From an uncultured Gammaproteobacteria bacterium (lineage in GTDB: Bacteria > Pseudomonadota > Gammaproteobacteria > PS1 > Pseudothioglobaceae): a stretch of 64,000 nt of DNA. The notes under the pieces are model-generated. The model was not told the DNA's origin, did not search any database, and was given only the letters and a program-made list of their open reading frames with translations. Numbering within the stretch: position 1 is the stretch's first letter; the number at the start of each line of letters is the position of its first letter. Below, piece by piece: positions 5,825 to 22,565 of the stretch. The stretch spans positions 1 to 64,000 of the forward strand of contig CABWZI010000008.1 in assembly GCA_902509905.1 (NCBI GenBank), in the 5' to 3' direction. The position numbers were made by a program, and so were the translations under genes.

Positions 5825-6803
5825 AAAAGTTAATATAAGTAGTTCTTCCTTGCTAATATTTTTTGTTTCAACGATATTTGCATTGATTGTTGGTTCCGGT
5901 ATTTATGGATATGGAATTGATTATTTCGCAGCTTATCATAAGCCTAATTTAATTTGGGGTGGGTTTTTTGATCGCTTTGGATATAGAGTGGCAACACTAA
6001 GTATTAATGGGGTTCACATTGGTGTCCATTTAACCACTTTCATTCTTTCAATTTCAGTAGGTTTTTTCATTAGAAATCAACTTAAGTTAAAGTTAAATTA
6101 CTCTTTTGCTTTTTTTGCTTTTATTTATCTAATATCAATTCACACCTGGCCTATCATAATGTCTACTTCTAATGCTATGAGGCAAGGTTTGACAATGTCC
6201 TTCATATTTTTGGCTTTGATTTCTAGTTCTCAAAAAAACTATATTAGCATGTTATTTTTTTGCCTTATTTCGGTCTTCATGCATAAGAGTGGTTTAATTC
6301 TGACTATGATTATTGTTTTAGCAACCTTTTTAAGTGATACTTTGAAGTTTGATAATTTAGCTAGAAGAAAATTGATTAATAGTCTCATTGGAGTTATTGG
6401 TTTTTTTGCACTATATATTGCCATTAATTTCATTTTCAATATACTCGATGATAATGGTCCCTCAAAGATAATTGAAGGAGATTTTAGAGCTGCATTTTTT
6501 ATGATTGCTTTTTTTTATATAACGTTATCTTTTTTTTATGAAAATCTTACAACTGGCCCAATAAATTTGACTTTATATTATTATAGTTTTCTTTCTCCAG
6601 CAATTTTATTTAGTGGATTAAATTGGGAGTATGAAAGATTAGGAATGATGATGTTAATTCCTTACATTCTCTCTTTTGGTAGTATATTTAATAAAAGCTC
6701 AAATACAATATACCTTTCTATATCCTTTATAGCGTTGCTTGCTATGACTATCTTTACTGGGATGTATGATATTGGATTACGAAATTGGAATGAATATTTA
6801 TAA
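5811..6803 (+). CDS. EpsG family polysaccharide polymerase-like membrane protein
   Basis: A 330-residue protein with about eight hydrophobic membrane segments and a short soluble start. The S-N-A-M-R-Q-G-L motif near the middle is characteristic of the EpsG/Wzy-like polymerase family. It would join repeat units on undecaprenyl diphosphate at the outer face of the inner membrane. It overlaps the preceding GT2 gene by 14 bases. No Wzx-type flippase is visible in the window, so the export partner must lie upstream of base 1 or elsewhere. Confidence 0.75.
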   Translation: MLTDKKVNISSSSLLIFFVSTIFALIVGSGIYGYGIDYFAAYHKPNLIWGGFFDRFGYRVATLSINGVHIGVHLTTFILSISVGFFIRNQLKLKLNYSFAFFAFIYLISIHTWPIIMSTSNAMRQGLTMSFIFLALISSSQKNYISMLFFCLISVFMHKSGLILTMIIVLATFLSDTLKFDNLARRKLINSLIGVIGFFALYIAINFIFNILDDNGPSKIIEGDFRAAFFMIAFFYITLSFFYENLTTGPINLTLYYYSFLSPAILFSGLNWEYERLGMMMLIPYILSFGSIFNKSSNTIYLSISFIALLAMTIFTGMYDIGLRNWNEYL

Positions 6804-6820
6804 TCAATCAGTTAAGCTTT

Positions 6821-8071
6821 ATGAAAATTATTTATCTTCACCAATTTTTTAATACACCCTCAATGCATGGTGGCGTAAGATCTTATGATATTGCAAAATC
6901 TTTAGTTAATAATGGACATACCGTTACCATGCTTACTTCTTCGAGAGAGGTTTCAGATAAGGCAGGATGGGGTTACACTAATGAAGATGGAATTGATGTC
7001 CATTGGTTGCAATTGCCCTATTCAAATAAATTAAGCTATGTAAAAAGATTAAAGTCATTTTTTTTATTTGCATTTCATTCAGCAAAAAAAGGCTCAAGTG
7101 TGAGCGGTGATATCATTTATGCAACTAGCGCTCCATTAAGTATTGCAATTCCGGCAATATATATTTCATGGAGAAAGTCAATACCGATGGTATTTGAAGT
7201 TAGAGATCTTTGGCCAGAGGTACCTATTGCAATTGGTGCTATAAAAAACTCATTAATTAAGTTTTTAGCAAAACTCTTAGAAAAATATACTTATAAAAAA
7301 TCTGAAGCTGTTGTCGCATTATCTGAAGGGATGAAAAATGGAGTAATTGCTACGGGATATGATGCAAATAAAGTCTTTGTAATTCCAAACTTTTCCAATT
7401 TGGAATTGTTTAATGCAGAGTTTTCATCCGAAAAATTTCGAAGTAAGAGAGAGTGGTACCGTGGCTCACCATTATTGGTATACACTGGAACCTTTGGCCT
7501 GATTAATGGAGTAACTTACCTTGTCGATGTTGCAGAGCATTTGGCATTATTGAATTCTAATGTAACGATTTTATTGATTGGCCATGGGCGAGAATATGAT
7601 TTTGTAAAATCTTATGCCGAAGAAAAAAATGTACTAAATATAAATCTATTTATTGAGCCAAGTATTAAAAAGGAGGATTTACCAGAAGTATTAGCAGCTG
7701 CAGACCTCGCTAGTAATCTAGTTATAGATTTGCCAGAACTATGGAATAACTCTGCTAACAAATTTTTTGATGCACTTGCTAGTGGAACGCCTTTACTAAT
7801 AAATGGAAGCGGATGGCAGGCAGATTTAATAAATGAAACAAAATCAGGAATTGTAACTTATGGCAAAACTATTGAACAGTCAGCCAAACTTATTGATGAT
7901 TTTTTGAGAAATAAAAGTTTAGTTAAAGAGTCATCAAAGAACGCCCTAAATTTATCTAAAAAGCTATTTGATAAAGATAAACTAGTGAAAGAAGTTGAGG
8001 AAGTATTGGACTATTCATTGAGGCAAAGAATATCAAGGATATCGCAAAGAAGAAAAAATGAGAAAGTATAA
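6821..8071 (+). CDS. Glycosyltransferase family 4 (WbuB-like)
   Basis: A 416-residue GT-B protein. The start K-I-I-Y-L-H-Q-F-F and the following G-G-V-R-S-Y-D-I-A region match WbuB-like transferases. The V-F-E-V-R-D-L-W-P-E-V-P stretch is the family's conserved segment. The C-terminal domain has S-A-N-K-F-F-D-A-L-A-S-G-T-P, the donor-binding region. WbuB-type enzymes commonly add an N-acetylfucosamine-type sugar to the lipid-linked first sugar; here the sugar is only a guess. It overlaps the following PglC-type gene by 14 bases, and the initiating enzyme and an early transferase are often paired this way. Confidence 0.83.
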   Translation: MKIIYLHQFFNTPSMHGGVRSYDIAKSLVNNGHTVTMLTSSREVSDKAGWGYTNEDGIDVHWLQLPYSNKLSYVKRLKSFFLFAFHSAKKGSSVSGDIIYATSAPLSIAIPAIYISWRKSIPMVFEVRDLWPEVPIAIGAIKNSLIKFLAKLLEKYTYKKSEAVVALSEGMKNGVIATGYDANKVFVIPNFSNLELFNAEFSSEKFRSKREWYRGSPLLVYTGTFGLINGVTYLVDVAEHLALLNSNVTILLIGHGREYDFVKSYAEEKNVLNINLFIEPSIKKEDLPEVLAAADLASNLVIDLPELWNNSANKFFDALASGTPLLINGSGWQADLINETKSGIVTYGKTIEQSAKLIDDFLRNKSLVKESSKNALNLSKKLFDKDKLVKEVEEVLDYSLRQRISRISQRRKNEKV

Positions 8072-8660
8072 GTATTCATTTGATTTAATATTAATATTTT
8101 TAACTCTACCAATATTAATTCCTGTTTTCTTGCTTATTGCAATACTGGTTTTTTTCAAGTCAGATTTTGAAGTATTTTTTAAACAGGAACGCCCAGGATT
8201 AAATGGAAAGGTTTTTTACTTGTACAAGTTCAAAACAATGATGGATAAATTTGATTCTGAAGGAAAATTGAAATCTGATACTGAAAGACTAACTAAATTT
8301 GGAAAATTTTTGAGATCAACAAGTTTAGATGAATTGCCTGGATTATGGAGTGTACTAAAAGGTGATATGAGCCTTGTGGGGCCTAGGCCATTGCTTGTGG
8401 ACTACTTGCCATTTTATTCTGAAATACAGAATAGGAGGCATGAAGTAAAGCCAGGAATTACAGGTTGGGCTCAAGTCAATGGAAGAAATGCAATTAGTTG
8501 GGATGAAAAATTTGAATTAGATGTTTGGTATGTCGATAATCAATCGCTTCTATTAGATATAAAAATCTTATGGCTGACAGTAAAAAAAGTGATAAATCGA
8601 AAAGATATTTCACCAGAAGGGTTGGATATTATGCCAAGGTTTGACAAAAATGAAAACTAG
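8058..8660 (+). CDS. Initiating sugar-phosphate transferase (PglC/WcaJ C-terminal type)
   Basis: A 200-residue monotopic phosphoglycosyltransferase that places the first sugar phosphate on undecaprenyl phosphate. One hydrophobic segment at about residues 8-32 forms the re-entrant anchor. The catalytic core follows: K-Q-E-R-P-G, Y-K-F-K-T-M, S-L-D-E-L-P, then D-M-S-L-V-G-P-R-P and G-I-T-G-W-A-Q-V-N-G-R. The short form without the N-terminal multi-span domain matches PglC. It overlaps the GT4 gene before it and the phosphoesterase gene after it. Confidence 0.9.
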   Translation: MRKYKYSFDLILIFLTLPILIPVFLLIAILVFFKSDFEVFFKQERPGLNGKVFYLYKFKTMMDKFDSEGKLKSDTERLTKFGKFLRSTSLDELPGLWSVLKGDMSLVGPRPLLVDYLPFYSEIQNRRHEVKPGITGWAQVNGRNAISWDEKFELDVWYVDNQSLLLDIKILWLTVKKVINRKDISPEGLDIMPRFDKNEN

Positions 8661-14402: not shown

Positions 14403-15224
14403 TTATTTGTCTTTTGCAAAATGATTATTTGCTGCAAGGTACCCTTTGAAGTTTCCACAATCAAAGCGTTTTCCTTCGAATTTATAAGCTAAGACTTTTC
14501 CTTGCTTAGCTTGAATATTTAGAGCATTAGTAATTTGGATTTCACCATTCCTGTCAGGCTTAAGGTTTTTTAAGATTTCGAAAATTTCAGAAGTAAGTAT
14601 ATAGCGACCGATAATAGCCATACTACTAGGCGCTTTATCTATTTCAGGTTTTTCTATCATTTCTTTTACTTTATAGATTCTTTTAGATCCTTCGACTAAT
14701 GTCCCAGAAATTACTCCGTATTGATTAATTTTATTTATTGGTACATCTTCAATTGCTACTATAGGGCATTTATATTCGTTGAACAATTCGATCATTTGAA
14801 GAGTAACACTATCATTATTGCAAACACATAGATCATCAGCAAGAATCACAGCAAATGGCTCATCTCCAATTAGAGGCTCTCCTGTTAAAATAGCATGACC
14901 CAACCCTAACATTTTCTTTTGACGAGCATAAGTAAAAGTTGATATCTCAATAATCTTTTTTATATCATTTAAATAATGCTCTTTTGGTGTGCCCTTTAAT
15001 TGTGATTCAAGTTCATATGAGTTATCAAAGTGATCTTCAATAGCTCTTTTACCTCTACCAGTCACAATTGCCATTGTAGTAATACCAGCAGATAGAGCTT
15101 CCTCAACGCCATATTGTAATAAAGGTTTTGTAACGACTGGGAGCATTTCTTTTGGAACAGCTTTTGTAGCTGGTAAAAAACGAGTTCCATAACCAGCAGC
15201 AGGGAAAAGACATTTATTAACCAT
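14403..15224 (-). CDS. galU: UTP-glucose-1-phosphate uridylyltransferase
   Basis: A 273-residue nucleotidyltransferase making UDP-glucose from UTP and glucose-1-phosphate. The N-terminus has A-A-G-Y-G-T-R-F-L-P-A-T-K-A-V-P-K-E, with the G-x-G-T-R loop and the K-E-M-L-P motif. I-L-A-D-D-L-C sits at the metal and uracil-binding position, and E-K-P appears in the sugar-binding part. The length matches the GalU family. It is convergent with the WbpM-type gene, 11 bp apart, and closes the polysaccharide locus by feeding UDP-sugar precursors. Confidence 0.92.
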   Translation of the reverse strand: MVNKCLFPAAGYGTRFLPATKAVPKEMLPVVTKPLLQYGVEEALSAGITTMAIVTGRGKRAIEDHFDNSYELESQLKGTPKEHYLNDIKKIIEISTFTYARQKKMLGLGHAILTGEPLIGDEPFAVILADDLCVCNNDSVTLQMIELFNEYKCPIVAIEDVPINKINQYGVISGTLVEGSKRIYKVKEMIEKPEIDKAPSSMAIIGRYILTSEIFEILKNLKPDRNGEIQITNALNIQAKQGKVLAYKFEGKRFDCGNFKGYLAANNHFAKDK

Positions 15225-16210: not shown

Positions 16211-16390
16211 GTGAGGGCTAGAACTAAAGATTGTAATGTCTGTAATAACTCAAACGCTATACTATATAGATGTAAATATCAAGAGTTGACTGATTGGGCA
16301 TTTCTTTGTCAGAAATGTCTGTCAGATGTAAAAACAAAGTTTGAGGATACCTATCAATATGGCGGAACTTGGAAAAGTAAGAAGAGTTAG
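16211..16390 (+). CDS. Small four-cysteine (zinc-ribbon-like) protein
   Basis: A 59-residue frame beginning with GTG and ending 11 bases before the left glmS-like repeat. Cysteines occur as C-N-V-C (residues 8 and 11), then Cys21 and a later C-Q-K-C pair, and the protein ends in Y-Q-Y-G-G-T-W-K-S-K-K-S. A C-x2-C pair, a second C-x2-C pair and a Y-x-Y-G-G-T-W-K tail recur, as I recall, in small uncharacterised marine bacterial proteins. The frame is also open upstream without an ATG, so the GTG start is a choice, not a certainty. Function unknown; metal binding is inferred. Confidence 0.55.
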   Translation: MRARTKDCNVCNNSNAILYRCKYQELTDWAFLCQKCLSDVKTKFEDTYQYGGTWKSKKS

Positions 16391-16400
16391 AGAGTGTAAA

Positions 16401-16460
16401 CTGTTAACCAACCAATTTCACCAAATTTAATGCAAAACCAGATTGATTCAACAGTAAAAA
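16401..16460. repeat. Left copy of glmS-end repeat (att-like)
   Basis: This stretch matches 18530-18589 at about 45 of 54 positions by hand alignment with one indel. The match includes both the intergenic part and, read on the minus strand, a T-V-E coding end like the true glmS terminus. Here the stop codon has changed, so it reads on. Direct repeats of this kind at both ends of a gene cluster look like the two ends of an integrated element. Which enzyme would act on them is unknown. Confidence 0.7.
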
Positions 16461-16835
16461 ACTGAAACCGTATGTACATTTAAATGAGACCGTTATTCCA
16501 CATCTCGAGTTCACTATGGAATTCCAATCCAACTAACTCATTTTCCAAAAAGAATACACTAAACGACAACAAATCATTTATCTTCTTATTTCACATCTTC
16601 ACGATTGAGAAGGGCGGGGATATCAAAAGATATCCAATAGGTTGAATAAAATTCCATATTGACCCATACAAGAAAGAAATGGTTTTCTTTATCGGTTATC
16701 TCAGTCTTAAAAAAAACATGAAAAGGATGTAATGGATGAGCAGATAAGAAATCAACATTTTCCAAGTAAGATTTCAAAGTTTGAAGTGAATTATTATGTT
16801 TTTGATTGAATAGAATAGTAGAATTAACTCATAGT
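16430..16835 (+). repeat. 400-bp module, left (decayed) copy
   Basis: Aligns along its whole length with 17644-18046, starting at the same A-T-G-C-A-A-A-A-C next to the glmS-end-like core and ending at the same C-A-T-A-G-T. The similarity stops abruptly at both ends, which defines the module. Several substitutions, small indels and stops separate the copies, so the duplication is not recent. Confidence 0.8.
16516..16809 (+). pseudogene. Decayed copy of the small recombinase-domain ORF
   Basis: This corresponds to the intact ORF at 17724-18020. Reading it in the homologous frame gives the same order of conserved segments (Q-K-E-Y-T-K-R-Q-Q-I-I-Y-L-L, D-E-Q-I-R-N-Q-H-F-P and a final Y-V-F-D). 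It has a stop after six codons, further internal stops near H-D and before P-I-Q-E, and a shifted middle segment. It cannot make the full protein. It sits immediately right of the left glmS-like repeat, as its intact sister sits right of the middle one. Confidence 0.8.
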
Positions 16836-16902
16836 AAAAAAAGACTCTATTATGAAAGAATTAAACATATCTTTCTTTGAAATATGTTTTCTTTGTCAAT
16901 TA

Positions 16903-17226
16903 TTATTGTTTGTATGCTGAAACCTCAATAATCTTATTTTCATCATTAAATTTTATAATGTCTATGACTTTAAGTATTTCTTCATTATTAATAATTATTT
17001 CAATTAAGCAAATTGCAACCAATTCGTTCAAATAAAGATCGTTTAAAGTTACTGAAATACTTTCAACAGAATCAAAAATATTTTTATTTGAATCTAGAGC
17101 CTGTTTTTTCCCTTTCGCAAGTATTTCCCAATCTTGCAAAATAACATCATCTGAAAATATATTATCTAATCCTTTAATATCTTTATTAGAAAATATTTCA
17201 AAGTAAGTTTTAACTAAATTTTCCAT
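16903..17226 (-). CDS. NTF2/SnoaL-like small protein
   Basis: A 107-residue protein with the cone-fold pattern of SnoaL/NTF2-like proteins: an N-terminal helix Y-F-E-I-F-S-N-K-D, then D-D-V-I-L-Q-D-W, and several alternating beta strands ending in I-K-F-N-D-E-N-K-I. Such proteins are small isomerases, hydrolases or binding proteins, and sequence alone does not tell which. It is on the minus strand within the island, between the left module and the remnants, and appears to be cargo. No partner gene is adjacent. Confidence 0.65.
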   Translation of the reverse strand: MENLVKTYFEIFSNKDIKGLDNIFSDDVILQDWEILAKGKKQALDSNKNIFDSVESISVTLNDLYLNELVAICLIEIIINNEEILKVIDIIKFNDENKIIEVSAYKQ

Positions 17227-17316
17227 TCAATTCCAATTAGTATTAACTATCCTTAATTAAAATGCAAAGAAGCCAGCACCAATAAAAATAGAAAGTTAAT
17301 TATAACAGATTGATTT

Positions 17317-17454
17317 CTAGACCTTTTTTTGGGCATCTACTTCATAGTGTACCCTTTTTTCATAGTGTACCCTTTTTGGAGGCATTAAAAAAACTATCTT
17401 TTGATTAAGTTCAGTGTAGTTTTCAGGGTAGTCCCTTATTCCCATAGAGATCAT
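17317..17454 (-). pseudogene. Gene remnant with internal 18-bp in-frame duplication
   Basis: A 45-residue frame from ATG 17454 to TAG 17317; the frame is open further upstream for about 18 codons (A-C-Q-E-W-R-L-E-T-L) before a stop, so it looks like the tail of a larger gene that has lost its start. The hexapeptide K-R-V-H-Y-E occurs twice in a row because of an exact 18-bp tandem duplication at 17341-17376. I do not recognise the family. It lies just left of a NERD-like fragment on the same strand. Confidence 0.45.
17341..17376. repeat. Exact 18-bp tandem duplication
   Basis: Two perfect 18-bp units lie side by side, each beginning TTCATAGTGTACCC and ending in a T run. On the minus strand they fall in frame in the remnant at 17317-17454 and duplicate six codons. 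Perfect identity implies a more recent event than the decay of the 400-bp module nearby. Confidence 0.9.
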
Positions 17455-17514
17455 ATTTCTATCAACCAGTTTTAAGGTCTCCAGTCTCCATTCCTGACAA
17501 GCATTACACTAGAC

Positions 17515-17601
17515 TTAATGAAATCGACGGTATAGTTCTTTATCTAAACTAAACCATAAATTTAATTCTGTTCTCTGTTCCCCAATCCATCCTTTAAACA
17601 T
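17515..17601 (-). pseudogene. N-terminal fragment resembling a NERD-domain nuclease-related protein
   Basis: A 28-residue frame with ATG at 17601 and stop at 17515. It begins M-F-K-G-W-I-G-E-Q-R-T-E-L and continues L-W-F-S-L-D-K-E-L-Y-R-R-F-H. This resembles the start of NERD-domain proteins, in which a G-E motif is followed by a linker leading to the nuclease-like core. The core (normally D-G-x-T-Q-I-D-H) is absent, so only a stump remains. The family call is from memory of the pattern and would need a profile search. Confidence 0.4.
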
Positions 17602-17637
17602 AAAAGGTATTCTACCTTCTACCTCTAACCTTTAAAA

Positions 17638-17687
17638 GGGTCCATGCAAAACTACTCAACAGTAACAAATTGTTTCCGTATGGACCC
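17638..17687. repeat. Middle att-like core with inverted GGGTCCAT arms
   Basis: The centre, read on the minus strand, spells V-T-V-E-stop like the glmS terminus. It is bracketed by a perfect 8-bp inverted repeat, GGGTCCAT at 17638-17645 and ATGGACCC at 17680-17687. An 11-bp palindrome, AACAAATTGTT, lies inside it. The upstream flank shared by the left and right copies is missing here. Inverted arms around a core are what recombinase binding sites look like, but no recombination was observed. Confidence 0.55.
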
Positions 17688-18046
17688 CTATATGAATCAG
17701 TAATCCCATGTCTAGAGTTCTCAATGGAATTTCAATCCAATAATCTCATTTCCCAAAAAGAATACACTAAACGACAACAGATCATTTATCTTCTTATCCA
17801 TCATCTTCACGATAGAGAAGGGTGGGGTTACAGAAAGATATCAAAATGGTTGAATCAGAGTGGAATAAAGACCCTTAGAGGGAAGAACTGGTTCTCTTCA
17901 TCAGTTATCTCAGTCTTAAAGAGAAAACACGAGAGAGATCTAATGAATGAACAGATCAGAAATCAACATTTCCCAATTAAGGTTTCAAGATTTGAGGTGA
18001 ATTACTATATTTTTGATTGAATAGAATAGTACAATTAATTCATAGT
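17644..18046 (+). repeat. 400-bp module, middle (intact) copy
   Basis: Homologous along its full length to 16430-16835. Both copies start within the glmS-end-like core and end with the same short sequence downstream of the ORF stop. The next gene starts 18 bases after the module end, so module and cargo are tightly joined. This copy retains an uninterrupted coding frame, unlike the left one. Confidence 0.8.
17724..18020 (+). CDS. Small protein with recombinase-type DNA-binding segment
   Basis: A 98-residue protein. Residues about 31-66 read G-W-G-Y-R-K-I-S-K-W-L-N-Q-S-G-I-K-T, then R-G-K-N-W-F-S-S-S-V-I-S-V-L-K-R. This is the pattern of the Recombinase domain (PF07508-like) that follows the catalytic domain of large serine recombinases and binds DNA by helix-turn-helix. 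No catalytic serine domain precedes it. I chose ATG 17724; a TTG at 17670 would add 18 residues. The module copy at 16516 is broken. It may be a DNA-binding accessory factor or a stable remnant. Confidence 0.65.
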   Translation: MEFQSNNLISQKEYTKRQQIIYLLIHHLHDREGWGYRKISKWLNQSGIKTLRGKNWFSSSVISVLKRKHERDLMNEQIRNQHFPIKVSRFEVNYYIFD

Positions 18047-18064
18047 TCAAAATAATCTTTATTT

Positions 18065-18508
18065 ATGAGTATATTTACAGATAGGGGATGTGCGGGATGT
18101 TTAGCATTAAAGTTAGTTGTTTTATTCTTTATATTTACATACCCTCCATTTATCTCATTATTTTTTAAGGTCAAATCTATCCATCCAAATTGGGAACTTG
18201 GATTGATAATTTTGGGTCTTATTCTATGGGTTTTTATTTTTAAATTATTTGATTATTTTTATAAAAGATTCCCTATTTTTGTAAAATTATTACTATATGG
18301 ACCTTTATTACTTGTTATTTATGTATTGGTGTTTGGGTTAAGTCCAGATTATGCATCGATTAATCCATTGCATAACACCTATGTTTCGTCTCTAGTATTA
18401 ATTTTTGCTTCTTTAGTGGTCATAATTTGGATTTATTGTCAAATTTTTAATGGTAAATATTGTACCGCAGGTAGTAATGAGGATAGTGATACTGAGGATG
18501 GAAGTTAA
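18065..18508 (+). CDS. Small multi-span membrane protein (island cargo)
   Basis: A 147-residue protein with four likely membrane segments (about residues 15-35, 43-62, 70-90 and 107-125) and an acidic tail E-D-S-D-T-E-D-G. The start D-R-G-C-A-G-C-L holds two cysteines before the first helix. I do not recognise the family. It begins 18 bp after the intact module and ends 21 bp before the right glmS repeat, so it is the cargo of the right-hand element. A role in defence or transport would be a guess. Confidence 0.6.
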   Translation: MSIFTDRGCAGCLALKLVVLFFIFTYPPFISLFFKVKSIHPNWELGLIILGLILWVFIFKLFDYFYKRFPIFVKLLLYGPLLLVIYVLVFGLSPDYASINPLHNTYVSSLVLIFASLVVIIWIYCQIFNGKYCTAGSNEDSDTEDGS

Positions 18509-18529
18509 GTTCAAGTGTATCAGTGGAGA

Positions 18530-18589
18530 CTGTTAACTAACCAAATTCACCAATTTTAATGTACACCCAAATCATTCAACGGTGACTGA
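18530..18589. repeat. Right copy of glmS-end repeat (authentic glmS terminus)
   Basis: This contains the last codons of glmS (S-V-T-V-E, stop at 18572-18574, minus strand) plus about 42 bases downstream. It is repeated at 16401-16460 in the same orientation. The end of glmS is strongly conserved and is known as the target of Tn7-type elements; this repeat is longer than a Tn7 target duplication and includes coding sequence, so a different mechanism is more likely. Confidence 0.7.
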
Positions 18590-20419
18590 CTTTGCTAAAT
18601 TTCTCGGCTTATCAACATCTGTGCCTTTCTCAAGTGCGACATGATAGCTAAGTAACTGAAGTGGTATGGTAAATATAATAGGTGCAGTTATTCTGCCAAG
18701 GTTTGAAGTGATTTGAATAACTTCCATGGCATCCATGGATTGAACTTTTGAGCTCTCATCTTCAAAAACAATCATTTGCGACCCCCTGGATTTTACTTCC
18801 TGTAAATTAGATTTAAGTTTCTCTAAAAGTTCATCATTTGGTGCAATCGCAATCACAGGCATATTTTTATCAATTAAAGCAATTGGCCCATGTTTAAGCT
18901 CACCTGCAGGATATGCTTCGGCATGAATATAACTTATTTCCTTAAGTTTTAATGCTCCTTCCATAGCAATTGCATGCATAGTTCCTCTTCCTAAAAATAA
19001 AGCACTACTATTATTTTTGAAGCGTTTTGCCAAATGCATTATCTGTTTTTCTTGAAGCAGTGTTTCATTAATAAGTCCAGGCAATTTTTTTAAACCACTT
19101 ACAATTTCGCTTTCTTGCATTTTACTTATGCTGCCTTTTAGCTTACCAATAGCACAGAGTAATAATGCTAGAGAAACTAGTTGTGTAGTAAAAGCTTTTG
19201 TGCTTGCCACTCCAATTTCTGGGCCAGCATGAGTTAAAAATGTTAAATCAGATAATCTAGTAAGGCTTGATTCAGGTGAGTTAGTTATACAAAGAGATTT
19301 TAATGTATTGTTTAATTTTTTAGCTATTTTAAGAGCCTCTAATGTATCAGCTGTTTCACCACTTTGTGATAAAGCAATAAAAAGAGTTTGATCCAAAATA
19401 ATAGGGCGTCGATATCGATATTCGCTGGCTATTTCAACATTACATGGAATTTTTGCAATGTCTTCCATCCAATATTTTGCAACAAGGCCTGCATTATAGC
19501 TGGTCCCACAGGCAACAATTTGAATTTGAGTTATTGATCTAAAAATTTCATCTGCCTGATGACCAAAAGATGAAGAAATAACAGAATTATTAGTGATTCG
19601 AGATTCTAACGTATCCCTTATTGCTTGTGGTTGCTCAAAAATCTCTTTTTGCATGAAATGATCAAAATTACCCTTGTTAGCCTGCCCAGCTTTAAGCTTG
19701 GATTCTTGAGCTGGGCGGTTCACTATTTTTCCATTTAAATCATAAATAGTAACTTTATCTAATTTAACTTCAGCAATGTCACCTTCCTCAAGATAGATAA
19801 ACTTTTTTGTTGTCGACAATAGGGCCATTTGATCGGAAGCAATATAGTTTCCATTTTCACCAATTCCAATTAATAAGGGAGAGCCTTTTCTTGCAGCAAT
19901 TATTTGATCTGGATATTTTGATGAAATAACTCCAATTCCATATGAACCTTGCAAGGATTTAACAGCTTTTTGAACTGATTCAACAAGAGAAGTGCATGAA
20001 TTCATTTCTAAATCAATTGAGTGCGCAATAACTTCTGTATCAGTTTCAGATTTGAATTCATAACCTTGCCTTATTTGGCTATTTTTCAATTCAATATAAT
20101 TCTCAATAATTCCATTATGAACTACACTCACAGTGTTTTTTGATATGTGTGGATGAGCATTGCGACTTGATGGCTCGCCATGAGTAGCCCATCTAGTATG
20201 AGCAATTCCTATATTTCCATTGATTTCTTTATTCCTTAACTTTAGATTTTTTTCTAAATTACTAACTTTTCCAACTGACCTTGCTCGATCAAAAGAATTT
20301 TTTTGAGAAAGAACAATTAGGCCAGATGAATCATAGCCTCGATACTCTAAACGATTTAAACCTTCTAAAAGAAGCGGAGTAATATTTTTATCTGTAACGC
20401 CACCAACTATTCCGCACAT
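18572..20419 (-). CDS. glmS: Glutamine-fructose-6-phosphate aminotransferase (isomerizing)
   Basis: A 615-residue enzyme making glucosamine-6-phosphate from fructose-6-phosphate and glutamine, the first step to UDP-GlcNAc. Cys2 (M-C-G-I-V-G-G) is the glutaminase nucleophile; H-T-R-W-A-T-H-G and H-N-G-I-I-E-N-Y complete that domain. Two SIS domains follow (A-C-G-T-S-Y and S-Q-S-G-E-T-A-D-T), and the C-terminus L-A-K-S-V-T-V-E is the conserved end. The full length fits the family. It feeds both cell wall and the polysaccharide locus. Its 3' end is the apparent integration target of the adjacent island. Confidence 0.97.
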   Translation of the reverse strand: MCGIVGGVTDKNITPLLLEGLNRLEYRGYDSSGLIVLSQKNSFDRARSVGKVSNLEKNLKLRNKEINGNIGIAHTRWATHGEPSSRNAHPHISKNTVSVVHNGIIENYIELKNSQIRQGYEFKSETDTEVIAHSIDLEMNSCTSLVESVQKAVKSLQGSYGIGVISSKYPDQIIAARKGSPLLIGIGENGNYIASDQMALLSTTKKFIYLEEGDIAEVKLDKVTIYDLNGKIVNRPAQESKLKAGQANKGNFDHFMQKEIFEQPQAIRDTLESRITNNSVISSSFGHQADEIFRSITQIQIVACGTSYNAGLVAKYWMEDIAKIPCNVEIASEYRYRRPIILDQTLFIALSQSGETADTLEALKIAKKLNNTLKSLCITNSPESSLTRLSDLTFLTHAGPEIGVASTKAFTTQLVSLALLLCAIGKLKGSISKMQESEIVSGLKKLPGLINETLLQEKQIMHLAKRFKNNSSALFLGRGTMHAIAMEGALKLKEISYIHAEAYPAGELKHGPIALIDKNMPVIAIAPNDELLEKLKSNLQEVKSRGSQMIVFEDESSKVQSMDAMEVIQITSNLGRITAPIIFTIPLQLLSYHVALEKGTDVDKPRNLAKSVTVE

Positions 20420-22020: not shown

Positions 22021-22049
22021 ATAATGTAATTACAATATAATTACATTAT
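22021..22049. promoter_or_regulatory. Perfect inverted repeat over the mazE start
   Basis: Two 12-bp arms, ATAATGTAATTA and TAATTACATTAT, are separated by five bases. The right arm runs into the mazE start codon at 22048. Toxin-antitoxin operons are usually repressed by the antitoxin at such a palindrome. The position is well suited to block transcription or initiation. Use as operator is inferred. Confidence 0.6.
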
Positions 22050-22254
22050 GGCTAAAATCATTCAAATAGGCAATTCACAGGGTGTCAGAATACCTAAGCC
22101 ACTCATTGCACTAGCTAATCTTGAGGGTAAAGAGCTTGAATATGTTGTGATGGATAGTGGTCTTCTGATTACACCAGAAAAAAAAGTTCGAGTGGGTTGG
22201 GAAATTGATATTGATGATCTGAGCGTTGATTGGGAGTGGAGTAAGAGCTCATGA
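22048..22254 (+). CDS. mazE: AbrB/MazE-type antitoxin
   Basis: A 68-residue protein with the SpoVT-AbrB swapped-hairpin pattern: I-I-Q-I-G-N-S-Q-G-V-R-I-P-K-P near the N-terminus, then a short strand and an acidic, tryptophan-rich tail (D-W-E-W-S). The N-terminal part would bind the palindrome at 22021 and the tail would cover the toxin. Its stop overlaps the toxin start as ATGA. The pair sits between yciO and alaS and interrupts otherwise core genes. Confidence 0.8.
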   Translation: MAKIIQIGNSQGVRIPKPLIALANLEGKELEYVVMDSGLLITPEKKVRVGWEIDIDDLSVDWEWSKSS

Positions 22255-22565
22255 GGCGCTTTGAAGTCTGGCTAATTATGAAAAATCCAGAATTTGGGCG
22301 TGTAGTTGATAATCTTGGTCTGTGCACTATAGTCACTCCAGATGAGTTGAATAAACTGCCTAGCCTGCTAGTTGCCCCTATGACTACATCATTTGAGTCA
22401 ATACCTAGTCGAGTCGAATGCATTTTTGAAGGGGCAAAAGGATTCATCATGATTGATCAAATTAGAACGATAGAAAAATTATGCTTTATCAAAAAATTAG
22501 GAGAACTTGAAAATGACGTTCAAATAAATTTATGTGATCGCTTTCAAGAGTTTTTTGCTTACTAA
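22251..22565 (+). CDS. mazF: MazF/PemK-type toxin
   Basis: A 104-residue protein of the MazF/PemK family, whose members are mostly sequence-specific mRNA endoribonucleases. The early R-R-F-E-V-W-L-I segment corresponds to the usual G-D-I-W-x-V start, T-I-V-T-P-D-E-L-N is the family loop, and V-A-P-M-T-T holds the catalytic strand. D-Q-I-R-T-I corresponds to the conserved D-Q-x-R-T/S-x-D region. It overlaps the antitoxin by four bases. The N-terminal G-D is absent, so activity cannot be assumed. Confidence 0.78.
   Translation: MRRFEVWLIMKNPEFGRVVDNLGLCTIVTPDELNKLPSLLVAPMTTSFESIPSRVECIFEGAKGFIMIDQIRTIEKLCFIKKLGELENDVQINLCDRFQEFFAY

Follow-up and report, generated by a model that had tools for sequence, protein, structure and literature searches.

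How did three pieces resembling the end of glmS come to lie one after the other behind that gene, each module being followed by different cargo, in a genome in which no serine recombinase can be detected? The question is raised by a 2.2-kb stretch of the window, by which we mean the whole 64-kb stretch of DNA that was analysed. The genome to which it belongs is 1.52 Mb long and 89.6% complete, and its relatives include SUP05 / Candidatus Thioglobus genomes, several of them draft or single-cell assemblies. With considerable confidence, and on the basis of sequence comparison, we may understand this stretch as a short tandem array of non-autonomous integrative cassettes, set at the 3′ end of glmS and based on the action of a large serine recombinase (LSR). 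The image suggested by related genomes and viral contigs is that of tiny cassettes which an LSR carried on other elements inserted behind glmS, an essential gene, in a marine SUP05 bacterium. From glmS to the other border, the locus comprises the following features.

18572..20419, minus strand: glmS, its 3′ end being attB; the ORF ends ...DVDKPRNLAKSVTVE; 3′ ends were compared in 17 genomes of the genus
18547..18618, minus strand: junction R (attL type), glmS half / element half-site P′, outer arm TGTACATTAAAA; centre 18582/18583
18065..18508, plus strand: cargo of unit A (between R and M), a 147-aa protein with 4-5 predicted membrane segments
18021..18064, plus strand: leader, ending exactly at the cargo ATG; in G015, G016 and G022 related leaders stand before cargo genes that differ
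17670..18020, plus strand: intact module, a 116-aa protein with the LSR 'Recombinase' (PF07508) DNA-binding domain alone and two flanking beta strands
17627..17698, minus strand: junction M, with ATGGACCC arms on both sides; centre 17662/17663; glmS-like core GTTACTGTTGAGTAG
16903..17226, minus strand: ORF in the cargo region of unit B (between M and L), a SnoaL-like protein of 107 aa
16448..16841, plus strand: decayed module, with two TGA and two TAA in frame, then the same leader and a broken cargo start
16419..16490, minus strand: junction L, degenerate core, half-site P with arm TGTACATTTAAA (mate of R); centre 16454/16455
16390..16443, no strand assigned: terminal part of what is probably a third unit, most of it gone; homology with unit A at its cargo-side end
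14403..15224, minus strand: galU-like gene that closes the variable interval on its far side and comes directly after glmS in empty-site genomes

On the other side of glmS, at 22048-22565 and just upstream of alaS, the window also carries a MazE-like antitoxin and PemK/MazF-like toxin pair.

A first-pass annotation of this locus had proposed that small elements stacked at one site, starting from three glmS-end-like cores, which are indeed present where it had placed them (R, M and L) and which delimit two units, each with a module of about 400 bp. The motif GTNACNGTNGARTRRTTT, with at most one mismatch allowed, occurs twice in the 64-kb window, at M and R, with 0.03 occurrences expected and no shuffled sequence containing two; L is a degenerate third copy. 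The annotation had further matched the left and right copies and ascribed the match in part to the coding end of the gene. The resemblance is real (82% over 51 bp; 42 of 54 positions without gaps, nothing elsewhere in the window reaching 32 of 54), but it mostly covers the cargo-side end of a unit and not the end of glmS alone. As a consequence, what flanks L on the right seems to be the terminus of a third unit, most of which is gone, and a 28-bp piece of this cargo-side end matches a unit end in genome G022 at 96%.

We read the cores as the attachment junctions of an LSR, with a crossover in the Thr codon of the glmS end ...S-V-T-V-E-stop, and the last codons, V-E-stop, as being supplied by the adjoining element. 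In the relatives glmS ends with GTNACNGTNGAR-stop, followed by a genome-specific arm. The arms of the window pair in a nested fashion: R is matched by L, at an offset of one base, and M by itself. Simple tandem insertion does not produce such an order, which homologous exchange between modules would give, and we infer that either a circular cassette entered the module of unit A by homologous recombination, or modules were exchanged. None of the LSRs found in the genomes and contigs compared has the arm type of the window itself (ATGGNNC / TGTACATT).

Related genomes provide both empty and occupied versions of the site. In three sister genomes, G010, G025 and G028, galU lies 131 bp after glmS, with nothing of the array between them. 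Elsewhere, the variable number and kind of module-plus-cargo units that the stacking proposal anticipated are seen, with satellite units that extend from 78 bp to about 2.2 kb:

G014: units of about 800, 78 and 345 bp
G027: one unit of 340 bp
G016, contig C26: units of 666, 1133, 763 and 1867 bp, with five junctions over 4.8 kb
G022: an array in which four junctions precede galU
G015, contig C13 (L084 6871-9084): a unit of 2213 bp with matching arms, in a polysaccharide gene region that the assembly does not join to glmS

Contigs C26 and C5 of G016 have no physical join to glmS either, and contig C150 of G022 (L080), where a copy of glmS beginning at residue 34 stands beside the array in opposite orientation, is likely an amplification chimera. 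Many units are compact and built alike, with a leader and a single gene for a secreted protein between two att sites. The cargo differs: its families include MORN repeats, Adhesin_E, a zinc ribbon with DUF805 or DUF4190, and DUF2306, and several of the proteins begin with MKKLL..., a secretion signal. The leader, of about 50 bp, is conserved and stops exactly at the ATG of different cargo genes in the window and in L080, L070 and L074; some of its copies contain a weak inverted repeat (TAGTAGA/TCTACTA). In the window itself the cargo differs after each module, as had been noticed at first sight, and the 147-aa protein of unit A has no family match above cut-off.

The structure of the junctions was further explored with a set of 23 units or attP sites taken from the relatives and from IMG/VR contigs. 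Unit ends match as inverted half-sites in exact register, scoring 12.57/18 at shift 0 as against 4.5-5.9 at shifts 1-4, and the two ends of a unit pair better with each other (17.2/27) than with those of other units (12.0), a value reached by none of 20,000 permutations, the same being true of the outer arm alone. Pairing is poor in some units, namely in G023 (10/27), and in G016 proximal and G016C5a (13/27 each). The LSR element of G014 illustrates the arrangement: its glmS-side arm CAGTGGAATAGATTTGAGAGTACC matches the reverse complement of the far-end arm TGACGGAATTGATTTGAGAGTACC, both being equidistant from a centre inside the Thr codon, which is the half-site layout of an LSR. An attP with inverted half-sites, split into attL and attR on integration, is what these sites display. 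Arms of satellites equal those of LSR elements across genomes: ATTTGAGAGTACC of G022 is that of the G014 LSR, and the arm CAGGACATTCTATCA of the 345-bp unit of G014 is close to the arm GAGGACATTCTACCA of the G024 LSR. The motif GTNACNGTNGARTAGTTTNG has 14 matches in the genus and its reversed control none. As arm sequences vary between units, several recombinases may be needed.

Where, then, would the recombinase come from? The window contains no integrase, in keeping with what had first been noted, and no protein with PF00239 or a full PF07508 is detectable in its genome, complete at 89.6%; it is for this reason that we consider its units as non-autonomous. The suggestion that a helper acts in trans finds its counterpart in sister genomes, where LSR elements with matching arms at both ends lie at glmS: an 11-kb element in G014, with an LSR of 573 aa and a resolvase of 203 aa, and a 9.8-kb element in G024, with an LSR of 547 aa. 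Among IMG/VR sequences, one complete circle, L100, measures about 9.95 kb and has a 99-bp terminal repeat; after its LSR come an uncut attP that includes the end of glmS (GTCACTGTCGAGTAA) and then a protein made of the Recombinase domain only (6802-7080), an order that L109 repeats; this circular intermediate is that of a helper-type element, not of the window's own units. Two LSR elements of this kind stand in tandem in L130, and L133 and L135 show one and the same 10.5-kb element in glmS of two different hosts, with flanks that diverge right outside the junctions. The LSR of L133 has the resolvase, recombinase and zinc-ribbon domains (PF00239, PF07508, PF13408); those of G014, G024, L100, L109 and L130 were aligned, or are adjacent to att. 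Used as a tblastn query against phage and plasmid collections, the L100 LSR retrieved only distant (<30%) integrases. Most of the 21 IMG/VR contigs with the exact core motif were discarded as chance matches in phage genes, and the pieces read of G018:C35 (with a resolvase) and G019:C1 had no att junction.

L133 also codes for a C5 DNA methylase and has a weak match to a rolling-circle Rep (REP_ORF2-G2P). Small proteins with an HxH motif that resemble rolling-circle Rep are found in L133 (8313-8819), in the G024 element (1786-2244 downstream of glmS) and in L100 (101-868), a resemblance which suggests that the helper elements replicate as plasmid-like circles. In L129 the LSR element is reversed relative to glmS (att at 8383, minus strand); this orientation may explain units with the module at their far end, as in the window.

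The module deserves attention of its own. It had been described as intact once and decayed once, and so it is: its copies at 16448-16841 and 17656-18052 are 80-84% identical, the right one keeping an open frame and the left one having four in-frame stops. The 116-aa product of the intact copy matches PF07508 in its middle part, above the curated cut-off (Pfam E 3.4e-6), as well as a PHROG integrase family (1.6e-6), and has no catalytic domain. An AlphaFold2 model built from 13 relatives predicts a strand - helices - strand arrangement (pLDDT 79), for which a fold search of the PDB placed the LSR Bxb1 on top, with DeoR-type HTH proteins among the top matches; the E-values were not significant, and this may be taken as supporting evidence only. 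Pairs of intact copies have dN/dS values of 0.18-0.44, and another pair 0.06, so that the ORF is under purifying selection and looks like a working gene. It is present in 13 of 95 relatives, mostly near glmS, and its synonymous divergence (0.27-0.91) is lower than that of glmS in the same genome pairs (1.2 to saturated), which argues for horizontal spread. A module profile run against 398 genomes across the phylum gave matches that, outside the window's genome, were mostly in recombinase-sized frames, none of them shown to be tied to glmS.

On the helper elements this Recombinase-only protein always sits next to attP, and many satellites have kept it. Both facts speak for a directionality or accessory factor in recombination, a role that we regard as a serious possibility, if somewhat short of probable; alternatively, it might bind an operator as a regulator, or compete at the site. 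It is dispensable in cis, since minimal G016 cassettes do without it. In two genomes, module copies have lost the Recombinase domain with the flanking beta-strand segments still in frame (L004 1889-2020, L080 5393-5561). A divergent module protein also stands beside an att-like site away from glmS (L083 430-826, G003 contig C1), possibly a second target site.

That the units are in fact decayed, immobile remnants (CIMEs) of once complete LSR elements would preserve the same LSR mechanism, and differ only on present mobility. The window does hold a decayed module and a relic unit, and unit ends of G022 and G016 have GGTCAAAAA in common with the end of the G014 LSR element, which fits internal deletion; CIME decay followed by accretion is a described process (PMC5704250). 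Yet decay does not sit well with a module ORF that is under purifying selection and horizontally spread, nor with the many units which, five junctions being packed in 4.8 kb in one case, follow one compact plan with different cargo, and we hold this account to be unlikely, if far from negligible. A tyrosine recombinase, and not the LSR, could move the units if the proteins of about 200 aa noticed by sequence inspection in the G024 and L130 elements, which resemble such enzymes, were responsible. This is very improbable: no such protein could be recognised in L100, L133 or the G014 element from their ORFs, whereas in all three the LSR adjoins att, and half-sites symmetric about a central dinucleotide are a hallmark of LSRs.

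It is well established that glmS is the classical target gene of Tn7, and a Tn7-like transposon family with that target might be thought to have inserted the units. We can give hardly any credence to this account: a Pfam search of module and element proteins gave no transposase family, serine recombinases are present at the site, insertion is inside the coding end with the last codons replaced, a duplication that the first-pass annotation had rightly set apart from Tn7, and LSR-bearing elements with matching half-sites contradict it. An AT-rich intergenic region, for its part, might harbour conserved terminators or chance similarities mistaken for cores, ordinary gene duplication of a module with its flank being enough to yield two copies. 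This too is exceedingly improbable, as the cores align with the codons of glmS, are missing behind that gene in the genomes with an empty site, turn up in circular and viral contigs, and show pairing in exact register; the L100 circle and the L133/L135 pair contradict it as well. The cores are the last glmS codons plus arms, and the terminator that had initially been envisaged as fatal to the proposal has not materialised.

Returning to the array of LSR-based cassettes, we may propose how it was built. Each cassette would carry at its two borders the half-sites (P′ and P) of an LSR attP, enter as a circle, and recombine within the Thr codon close to the end of glmS, the P′ arm providing the last codons and the stop so that glmS is kept intact. 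The resulting junctions would then serve later cassettes, hence the stacking. The LSR would be provided in trans by the autonomous elements of about 10 kb that use the same glmS site in relatives, with the order LSR - attP - small Recombinase-domain protein - resolvase - cargo, and it is that small protein which the module of the window's cassettes encodes. Comparison establishes, at the level of sequences, the site, the structure of its junctions, the helper elements, the circle, the empty sites, the purifying selection and the horizontal spread; from these we infer that the helper LSR acts in trans on the cassettes. A bolder generalization, which we put forward tentatively and with more doubt than belief, would see in SUP05 and related marine hosts an integron-like system built on serine, not tyrosine, recombination, where glmS is the anchor, where single-gene cassettes for secreted proteins, each bearing self-complementary att sites, are captured there to form a stack, and where a cassette-encoded, free-standing Recombinase-domain protein steers the helper LSR.

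Little is known of how SUP05, a lineage abundant in the sea, gains genes. As many cassettes code for secreted or membrane proteins, and the interval from glmS to galU is a surface-polysaccharide region, such arrays are a candidate means of varying the cell surface rapidly. LSRs that target and rebuild the end of a gene conserved across bacteria could be useful integration tools, and the small protein with a Recombinase domain on its own, next to attP, is a candidate directionality or accessory factor of a new kind.

Among known systems, the staphylococcal and enterococcal cassette chromosomes (SCC and ECC) insert, by means of an LSR-type recombinase, into a conserved gene at its 3′ end, their att sites being direct repeats that carry inverted repeats and their cargo variable (PMC6222049). 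Recombinase type, gene-end insertion, att layout and variable cargo are alike in the CcrAB serine recombinase system at the rlmH 3′ end and in the present one. Here, in contrast, it is not ccrAB or ccrC at rlmH that we find, and the target is glmS, with a single LSR beside att instead of a CcrA/CcrB pair, a different att sequence, one-gene units of 0.1-2 kb and a stand-alone Recombinase-domain protein beside attP. In CIME/IME accretion, which concerns cis-mobilizable elements, those without an integrase keep attL and attR and accumulate in tandem at a gene end (PMC5704250); the present units likewise lack recombinase and transfer genes and retain attL and attR, but they resemble compact cassettes with a conserved leader and gene, and no transfer genes were recognised in the helper elements. 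Tn7 shares the host gene, yet it inserts downstream of glmS by means of TnsABCDE and leaves the codons unaltered, and no match to Tns-type families appeared among the module and element proteins scanned with Pfam. Integron gene cassettes are tandem single-gene units, each with a variable, internally complementary recombination site; integrons work with the tyrosine recombinase IntI, an attI site, and attC sites that recombine as folded single strands. The likeness lies only in the cassette logic: the sites at glmS have a serine-recombinase architecture, with half-sites at opposite ends of the unit, glmS and not attI as the anchor, and, in many units, a leader of their own. A search of a literature library returned no relevant paper on LSR insertion at glmS, LSR cassette arrays or SUP05 islands, an absence that is no proof of novelty, and the text of a 2022 survey of LSRs does not mention glmS. 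The nearest case of a recombinase and its directionality factor being split between genomes is that of the LSR-dependent PLE satellites of Vibrio cholerae (PMC6002521), where the satellite has the LSR and borrows the factor, whereas here it is without LSR and with a possible factor. What is new is the use of glmS as an LSR target, the arrays of single-gene cassettes, and the stand-alone domain protein with its putative role.
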